A stretch of 64,000 bases of DNA from Streptomycetaceae bacterium (GTDB taxonomy: Bacteria; Actinomycetota; Actinomycetes; Nanopelagicales; Nanopelagicaceae): NCBI GenBank assembly GCA_027483765.1, contig JAIXTW010000011.1, positions 1 through 64,000 on the forward strand, written 5' to 3'. The position numbers and the translations under genes were made by a program. The notes beneath the pieces were generated by a model. It had not been told where the DNA came from. It saw only the letters and a program-made list of their open reading frames with translations, and ran no database searches. Each line of letters begins with the position of its first letter. Positions within the stretch are counted from its first letter, which is position 1. This document shows, one piece after another, positions 20,709 to 23,204 of the stretch.

Positions 20709-21011
20709 TTATGACGCGTGCGAAATAACTGGAATACCGCGTTGAATCAAAATTGCAGTGCGATCATCTTCTGAGAGACCACCCCAAATACCGTAAGGCT
20801 CTTGCACTGCGAGCGCATGTGTGCGGCAGGCATTGATAACTGGGCATGAAGCACAAATTGCCTTGGCGGCATTCTCGCGATTGCGGCGACGGGGTCCACG
20901 TTCTCCATCAGGATGGAAAAACATCTCTGAATCCATCGAACGGCATGCGCCTTCGTACTGCCACTCCCATTGCTCAGCAATTGGTTTTGGAAGTCGTGAT
21001 AGTTCAGCCAT
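20709..21011 (-). CDS. whiB: WhiB-family iron-sulfur transcription regulator
   Basis: Wbl proteins bind a [4Fe-4S] cluster and act with the primary sigma factor; they occur in Actinobacteria and their phages. The 100-residue product has the four cluster cysteines C23, C53, C56, C62 (C-x29-CxxC-x5-C) and the GIWGG turn. A longer frame exists, but this ATG has GGAGA 7-8 bases upstream. Its place beside groES-groEL matches the WhiB3 (mycobacterial) and WhiD (Streptomyces) genes, so it is the likely counterpart; those control redox balance and development respectively. Convergent with groL, divergent from the MerR gene. Confidence 0.95.
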   Translation of the reverse strand: MAELSRLPKPIAEQWEWQYEGACRSMDSEMFFHPDGERGPRRRNRENAAKAICASCPVINACRTHALAVQEPYGIWGGLSEDDRTAILIQRGIPVISHAS

Positions 21012-21041: not shown

Positions 21042-21070
21042 AGCGTACAACCGTTTCATAGGTTGTTCAA
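21042..21070 (-). promoter_or_regulatory. whiB promoter with inverted repeat in its spacer
   Basis: On the minus strand TTGAAC and TACGCT are separated by 17 bp. An inverted repeat (ACAACC/GGTTGT, 8-bp gap, 21047-21066) lies within the spacer, where a bound repressor or activator could control whiB. The leader is about 25 bases and includes GGAGA. Confidence 0.65.
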
Positions 21071-21156
21071 GGTCCAATCCTTGCGAGTCTAATTCTCGGT
21101 CCAAAATGTCCGTTTTTCAGGTGGTGAGGTGAGCCACTTTCCGCCACGCTTACCCC

Positions 21157-22044
21157 ATGGTGGCCATGGATGACGAGAAATTCACCGTGGCAGCGGTGGC
21201 TCGCCGAGTCGGAGTAGCTCCCGCCACTTTGCGCACCTGGGCCCGCCGCTACGGCCTTGGTCCATCTGGCCACGAAGCTGGTGAGCATCGCAAGTATCGC
21301 TCGGAAGATTTAGCAAAATTGATAATGATGCGACGGTTAATTGTAGCTGGGGTGAGCCCGGCAGAAGCGGCAGCACAAGCCCTTGCCCATAAGGGCAATC
21401 TCAACCTTGAGCAGATTGTTAAGAGCGTTAACGATCGCTCTGATGTGGTGGATGCAGTTGTAAGAGCTGCGCAATCCCTGGACCGTAATTTTGTCGAGGC
21501 GCTATTTCGACAGGAAATATCTCAGTTCGGCGTGATTGATAGCTGGCATGAGGTGATGGTTCCGGTCTTGATAATCGTTGGCGATATCTGGGCGCAGACT
21601 GGTGAAGGAATTGAAGTAGAGCACTTACTTTCCGAATCCATTACAAATGTTTTCCGTGATTTCTCCAAAGATATTGAGCAACCCATCAATCCTCGCCCAG
21701 TACTGCTGGCATCTGTCGGGGAAGAACTGCATTGCCTGGCTCTGTATGCCCTTCACGCTGCGCTCGCTGAACTAAACATTGAATGTCATGTGATGGGTGC
21801 CCGAACTCCACTCGAAGCAATTTCTACAGTAGTAACTCGAAGCGCCCCACCCGCTGTATTTCTGTGGGCACAGCTAGCAAAAAATGGTGACCCGATTTTC
21901 TTTGAAAACATCCCGAAGGTTCGGCCAGCTCCGCGAGTTGTCCTTGGCGGCCCTGGCTGGAACCGAGATCAATGCACAGAAGTTGCCTTCGCCGAGGATT
22001 TGGCGCTCGCCTGTTCTGAAATCAAGCAGGCAATCGGCGCTTGA
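21157..22044 (+). CDS. MerR-family regulator with cobalamin-binding-type C-terminal domain (CarH/LitR-like)
   Basis: Transcription regulator of 295 residues. An N-terminal MerR helix-turn-helix (about 8-75; ARRVGVAPATLRTWARRYG) is followed by a helical bundle (about 90-170) and a Rossmann-type domain (about 180-290). The bundle carries W145-x9-E155-H156, the motif that caps adenosylcobalamin in CarH photoreceptors. The lower-ligand motif reads E190-L-H192-C-L-A195, with alanine for the final glycine. The residue after W145 is alanine, where Thermus CarH has the histidine that binds cobalt after light. The gene is divergent from whiB and upstream of guaB. A second ATG three codons in is possible. 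Cobalamin binding is inferred. Confidence 0.82.
   Translation: MVAMDDEKFTVAAVARRVGVAPATLRTWARRYGLGPSGHEAGEHRKYRSEDLAKLIMMRRLIVAGVSPAEAAAQALAHKGNLNLEQIVKSVNDRSDVVDAVVRAAQSLDRNFVEALFRQEISQFGVIDSWHEVMVPVLIIVGDIWAQTGEGIEVEHLLSESITNVFRDFSKDIEQPINPRPVLLASVGEELHCLALYALHAALAELNIECHVMGARTPLEAISTVVTRSAPPAVFLWAQLAKNGDPIFFENIPKVRPAPRVVLGGPGWNRDQCTEVAFAEDLALACSEIKQAIGA

Positions 22045-22061: not shown

Positions 22062-23204
<1,143 letters not shown>

Follow-up and report, generated by a model that had tools for sequence, protein, structure and literature searches.

A CarH-like regulator divergent from whiB

What does a MerR regulator with a cobalamin-binding half sense, and what does it control, when its neighbor is a whiB gene? 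This question is raised by a 64,000-nt stretch of contig JAIXTW010000011.1 (the window), from a host that we take to be an acI actinobacterium. The regulator is the 295-aa product of the ORF at 21157–22044 (+), identified by domain profiles, structure matches and the ligand residues W145, E155, H156 and H192. Its nearest named protein records, at 86 and 87% identity, are from Planktophila. Because conservation of the protein sets in only near residue 6, translation may in truth begin at the second ATG (21166); the findings are unaffected. An HTH (residues ~9–72) is followed by a four-helix part (~99–166) and a Rossmann part (~182–267). The Pfam profiles MerR_1 (9.1e-12) and B12-binding_2 (3.7e-5) matched above their cut-offs, and B12-binding matched at 20.1 bits, below its cut-off of 32.1.

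The closest solved sequences were those of Thermus CarH/LitR (4.2e-16). A structure model built on 55 proteins (the window protein plus 54 of 102 listed proteins) had a mean pLDDT of 87.4, with residues 1–5 and 82–92 below 50, and its top Foldseek match was again CarH (E 4.8e-16). For the cobalamin half, the leading structure matches were photocobilins (PDB 8J2W, 8J2X, 8J2Y; Z 20.4–21.1 at 15–16% identity), CarH (Z up to 20.0) and CtMerR of Chloracidobacterium thermophilum (PDB 8JBS, 8JBT; Z 19.3 and 19.2 at ~20% identity), followed by the methylamine corrinoid protein, AppA and methionine synthase (Z ~15–18). CtMerR is MerR-type, like our regulator; photocobilins, unlike it, lack a MerR DNA-binding domain and carry a part that binds bilin (PMC11796333).

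Taken broadly, as a MerR HTH followed by a two-part cobalamin domain of CarH fold, the LitR/CarH kind includes this protein, with the B12-binding Pfam part scoring below cut-off. The NCBIfam CarH equivalog (NF052513) scored 92.7 bits against a curated cut-off of 400. We do not class the regulator as a strict CarH: it was tested for the tandem operator, the complete B12 motif and the equivalog score and fell short on each. It appears instead to combine a sensor architecture of the LitR/CarH kind with another target gene and another type of operator.

The gene order given in the preliminary description, with whiB divergent from the regulator and guaB downstream, is correct, and groEL lies beyond whiB. 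Its remark that no carotenoid genes are near holds for the ORFs read across 16–28 kb. The 100-aa whiB product (20709–21011, −) is of the WhiB3/WhiD type: its nearest solved structure is WhiB3 (7e-35, 122.5 bits), ahead of WhiB1 (8.1e-14, 54.8 bits), and it gave no NCBIfam match at 0.01.

Residues of the cobalamin pocket

W145, A146, E155, H156 and H192 all stand where the preliminary description had placed them. The CarH signature Wx9EH, which caps the adenosyl group, matches once in the protein, at 145–156. Loss of W145 or H192 from close orthologs had been named as a result that would count against the preliminary reading; both were kept in all 70 family proteins (the window's included), as were E155, E190, G214, P218, W237, G264 and G265, and H156 was kept in 69. 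Among 54 other actinobacterial proteins, E155 was present in 54, H156 in 53, H192 in 53, W237 in 49 and W145 in 45 (F, Q or H otherwise).

Strict CarH signatures comprise Wx9EH, ExHx2Gx41SxV/Tx22-27GG and tandem 11-bp operator repeats of the form nAnnTnnACAn (PMC8156234). Of the second, the regulator has the ExH, the spacing and the GG, with Ala195 in place of G, Trp237 in place of S and Gln239 in place of V/T. SignatureFinder describes light-responsive cobalamin domains by the motifs GxxW, EH, GxxxP and GxxH (PMC11796333). The first three are present (G142–W145, E155–H156, G214–P218) and, H156 apart, family-invariant. The fourth is absent, position 189 being Glu here and E 58, N 6, D 4, K 1 and Q 1 across the family.

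Trp237 (window 21865–21867) replaces the Ser of the B12-binding SxL/SxV motif in 70/70 family and 49/54 other actinobacterial proteins. The nucleotide-tail pocket may therefore differ, or may accept another lower base.

The preliminary description had singled out the alanine that follows W145, where Thermus CarH has H132. The residue is indeed alanine, and it is nothing special: His occurs at this site in 0/70 family and 0/54 other actinobacterial proteins, and position 146 in the family is E 34, A 21, V 7, Q 6 and K 2. From the residue counts in the two sets we conclude that the pocket is under constraint and that a missing H132 is the rule in the actinobacterial group. B12 photoreceptors that have been tested carry R, Q or Y at the H132 site, and CtMerR, likewise without His there, is reported to be light-responsive (PMC11796333). 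We thus rejected A146 as the mark of a unique photoproduct, the site being variable both across the family and in those tested photoreceptors; A146 could nonetheless point to a light state that differs from the one in Thermus CarH. AdoCbl binding and photolysis persist in the H132A variant of Thermus CarH; after light the variant was mostly tetrameric in one study, while an earlier report says that it falls apart (PMC10442372).

Cofactor supply was considered as a counter-argument and rejected. A PduO-type cobalamin adenosyltransferase was present in 22/22 family genomes tested, so that AdoCbl can be made from imported cobalamin; since these include three regulator-less genomes, it is not specific support either. 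Genomes of acI encode a putative cobalamin ECF transporter with riboswitches, and acI bacteria, unable to make cobalamin, must import it (PMC5301498). In one metatranscriptome the acI-A cobalamin transporter genes were present and their expression was not seen (PMC5574706). We found cobalamin riboswitch matches (E 0.001) in 22/22 family genomes, above the curated cut-off in 11. The strongest match of the window's own genome (98.7 bits; G000:C4:759-972) lies near a contig end, and no clear controlled gene was found among the ORFs beside it. Cobalamin binding by the regulator is likely.

A conserved element across the whiB promoter

Between the two divergent genes lies a proposed 26-bp operator, TACAACCGTTTCATAGGTTGTTCAAG (21046–21071), a conserved block in 46 aligned family intergenic regions. 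At 23 of its 26 positions the base was identical in 83–100% of the regions; the other three, in the spacer, were at 50–59%, and most adjoining columns fell well below the block. The arms of the dyad are ACAACC (21047–21052) and GGTTGT (21061–21066). Read in the whiB direction, the same DNA is a promoter, TTGAAC-N17-TANNNT, found in 65/65 family loci: the −35 box TTGAAC is at 21065–21070 (−) and, 17 bases away, the −10 box TACGCT at 21042–21047 (−). The dyad, ACAACC-N8-GGTTGT, thus spans the spacer and the boxes, and spacer bases of the element are conserved as strongly as the promoter boxes. The promoter is followed by the whiB start codon within ~10 bases in many genomes, which suggests a leaderless transcript.

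The window holds one site for the element, against 0 in 100 shuffles. One site per genome was also found in 19/19 family genomes with the regulator and none in three g26 genomes without regulator and whiB; reversed-pattern controls found none in all 22. In a wider set of 246 class genomes the element occurred in 27, once each and always beside the regulator gene. All 27 were among the 120 genomes with a regulator match and none among the other 126; 93 of the 120 had no element site at 3 mismatches.

CarH-type tandem 11-bp repeats were also sought in the intergenic region and rejected: the best arrangement matched 8/15 positions, equalled by 479/500 shuffles, with a Thermus control at 15/15 and 0/500.

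The suggestion that the repeat in the whiB promoter is the regulator's target is likely to be right, given that the element is unique and that it comes and goes together with the regulator. A second, weaker conserved block (21115–21151, +), with the inverted repeat AAGTGG-N9-CCACTT in relatives, is a candidate for the regulator's own promoter or an autoregulatory site.

Natural losses of the regulator

We looked for family genomes in which regulator and whiB had parted. At thresholds of E 1e-30 for the regulator and E 1e-20 for whiB, 106 of 151 family genomes had the regulator and 117 had whiB, many of the genomes being incomplete; 105 had both, 12 whiB only, one (G397) the regulator only and 33 neither. 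The 12 whiB-only genomes were picked by comparing the regulator and whiB tables, and the DNA upstream of whiB was read in these and in 20 same-genus (g115, g25) genomes with the regulator. The element was absent from 11/11 assessable regulator-less loci (best 7–12 mismatches), the twelfth being cut at 69 bases, and present in 20/20 controls (0–4 mismatches). Altogether 76 family loci were scored, 65 with element and regulator and 11 with neither, an agreement of 76/76. This count omits L164 (69 bases upstream), L173, and also L010 and L034 (no whiB found on the stretch), and L004 and L005 were not entered.

The best tree required five changes, of which well-supported branches force one (the tree has ~100 columns). 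Regulator and element are neighbors, so single deletions could remove both. In 12/12 regulator-less genomes, however, whiB keeps groEL and/or guaB on its stretch, which disfavors mere linkage.

G397, outside the 76-locus count, showed the reverse situation. Its locus (L173) has an intact regulator, an internally deleted or shortened whiB, no element and almost no intergenic DNA, from either decay or misassembly. Three complete g26 genomes (G160, G190, G262) lack the regulator, this whiB and a window-like guaB at the thresholds used, and keep the adenosyltransferase.

A sigma-R-like promoter in regulator-less genomes

Upstream of whiB, the motif GGAAT-N18-GTT was found in 8/11 regulator-less family genomes versus 0/65 with the regulator, a count that is post hoc, the motif having been spotted in the regulator-less sequences before counting. 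Dinucleotide shuffles gave expected means of 0.05 for the 11 and 0.35 for the 65. By genus, the regulator-less genomes had it in 6/6 (g115), 2/2 (g26) and 0/3 (g25); the loci are L161, L162, L165, L166, L167, L170, L171 and L172. This is the sigma-R consensus of Streptomyces coelicolor (PMC2375139), close to that of Corynebacterium SigH (PMC10012870), and a SigH/SigR-type sigma factor scored above the curated cut-off in 27/27 genomes tested. A promoter of this kind points to a role for this whiB in oxidative stress, which light would bring as well. Outside the family the motif shows no tie to regulator loss (2/37 linked rows, 1/8 unlinked).

Breadth in the class

Outside the family, the regulator was divergent to whiB in 34/51 class loci, these 51 being the best matches first of 101 genomes with a regulator match and so a non-random set; three plasmid records and Thermus were added, and linkage was seen in 0/3 of the plasmid records. 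L098, L099 and L107 repeat L058, L119 and L123, leaving 34 distinct linked loci. The element was present at ≤8 mismatches in 30 of these and at ≤5 in 15. Unlinked whiB loci outside the family had at least 11 mismatches in 8/8 cases, among them L101, which belongs to a genome whose other whiB is linked; in one unlinked locus read, no whiB was recognised.

In the regulator tree, which omits L004, L005, L034 and L035 as near-copies or partial, the family formed one starred clade and non-linked proteins formed several branches among whiB-linked ones. The linkage of regulator and whiB therefore looks old, on a tree that is rooted by a single long Thermus branch and has many weak forks. One non-linked clade of nine rows (SH-aLRT 99) includes Streptomyces LitR-like proteins, and 6/9 of its loci have LitS-like ECF-sigma, photolyase or carotenoid-type genes nearby. 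LitS-like sigma matches were also found near the pair L064 and L134 and near one whiB-linked locus, L148. The Streptomyces plasmid LitR-like proteins L063 and L065 resemble our regulator in falling in the same tree, in having no His after W and in having W at 237. They differ from it in keeping GxxH, in belonging to the nine-row clade and in not lying beside whiB; both adjoin an ECF sigma gene, and L065 is also near a lycopene cyclase gene.

In family f9 (L112, L116, L140, L144, L147) the regulator gene is directly behind groEL, and no whiB was recognised in the 5/5 loci read. All five proteins have Arg after W145, and L116 has lost H156 and H192; these loci count against a simple history of the linkage.

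A proposed switch and its alternatives

We consider it on balance probable that the protein is an AdoCbl-binding repressor of the CarH/LitR kind, that it acts mainly, perhaps solely, on the divergent whiB, and that light or AdoCbl loss releases it. In the dark, with AdoCbl intact, the regulator would sit on the dyad from −35 to −10 and so keep the sigma70-type whiB promoter silent. Once the adenosyl group had been removed, by light or by loss of AdoCbl, the regulator would leave the DNA. The freed promoter would then turn on the WhiB3/WhiD-type iron-sulfur regulator. The parts of this proposal differ in strength. The divergent whiB as target is well supported by the comparative data. Light response, AdoCbl binding and repression rather than activation are what we infer from motifs and relatives; as to light, the grounds are the capping motif and the relatives, and the regulator is probably light-released. 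A repressor fits best, because the element covers both boxes, whose 17-base spacing is normal, and promoter occlusion is how CarH proteins repress (PMC8156234). Since the site is a dyad and not a CarH tandem array, DNA recognition should differ, perhaps being that of an ordinary MerR dimer. Against the proposal stand the incomplete B12 motif, the absent tandem operator, the mostly tetrameric Thermus H132A of one study (PMC10442372), the 93/120 genomes without the element at 3 mismatches, f9 without whiB, G397 and the acI-A transporter, whose expression was not seen in one metatranscriptome (PMC5574706).

B12 status or redox is possible as the signal, and sequence does not separate light, cobalamin and redox. 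The same element could control whiB in response to cobalamin supply, light cleavage being slow or ineffective because A146 cannot form the bis-His state. The absence of His after W145 from all 124 actinobacterial proteins, the H132A result just cited and the need of acI to import cobalamin (PMC5301498) favor this; yet 69/70 family proteins retain Wx9EH, which caps the adenosyl group that light cleaves off, CtMerR is reported to be light-responsive with R at that site (PMC11796333), and the sole replacement seen for the whiB promoter is of stress type. We regard a supply sensor as rather unlikely. Control of whiB by a redox or oxygen sensor, through cobalamin chemistry (the oxidation state of Co), would suit a WhiB3/WhiD-type target, the sigma-R-like promoter in 8/11 genomes that lost the regulator and the involvement of O2 in the CarH light response itself (PMC10442372). 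All solved close relatives are light sensors, however, and we judge this very improbable.

A different kind of doubt concerns the target. The element could be a basal whiB promoter, or the site of another factor, that was deleted along with a neighboring regulator whose true targets are elsewhere. It does include promoter boxes and is no more than ~150 bp from the regulator gene, well-supported branches require few of the losses, and f9 retains the regulator without whiB. Simple co-deletion would nonetheless leave unexplained why spacer bases are conserved like the boxes, why whiB stays with groEL and/or guaB in 12/12 regulator-less genomes with the element gone from all 11 assessable, and why ≤8 mismatches are found in 30/34 linked class loci and ≥11 in 8/8 unlinked ones. 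We hold it to be unlikely.

CarA of Myxococcus xanthus is a MerR-type protein with a B12 half that represses by covering a promoter; it acts without B12 and has no Wx9EH, which our regulator has. Thermus thermophilus CarH (LitR; PDB 5C8D, 5C8E, 5C8F) shares with the regulator the MerR HTH, the four-helix/Rossmann cobalamin half, Wx9EH, the lower-ligand His and a site overlapping the promoter. Identity is ~25%, and the regulator has A146 for H132, Ala195 for Gly and Trp237 for Ser. The operator of Thermus CarH is three 11-bp direct repeats, whereas a dyad is proposed here, and its gene is beside carotenoid and photolyase genes rather than whiB.

Evolutionary and ecological context

It is conceivable, and we offer it tentatively, that in Actinomycetes B12 photoreceptors originally light-switched a WhiB3/WhiD-type gene through a single dyad, that the carotenoid-linked LitR system is a later re-targeting, and that whiB may join the sigma-R regulon of oxidative stress once the photoreceptor is lost. 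Pointing this way are whiB linkage in 34/51 loci with nested non-linked clades, the one-site regulon, the altered promoter in two genera out of three and the SigH/SigR-type sigma factor in 27/27 genomes. Our search of the open-access literature returned no paper containing both 'CarH' and 'whiB', a search that most subscription papers fall outside and that is no proof of an unpublished link. No report of this regulator in acI was found in the literature searched, and the available portion of a review of Streptomyces whi genes mentions no B12 regulator beside whiD.

If the proposal is true, a B12 light sensor is joined to a WhiB-family redox regulator in acI, which are among the most abundant lake bacteria, live in light and are unable to make B12. 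Redox control may then have preceded pigment control as the task of B12 photoreceptors in Actinobacteria, and Thermus CarH would not be representative in its bis-His light state. With one named operator and one target, testing the idea takes no more than one protein and a short piece of DNA.

Downstream of the regulator, guaB (22089–23204, +) is given as context with no membership implied; it is not adjacent in L013, L015 and L041. Its product in the window has only 371 aa. IMP dehydrogenases with a CBS module have ~490–500 aa, and the window protein is likely a CBS-less form.
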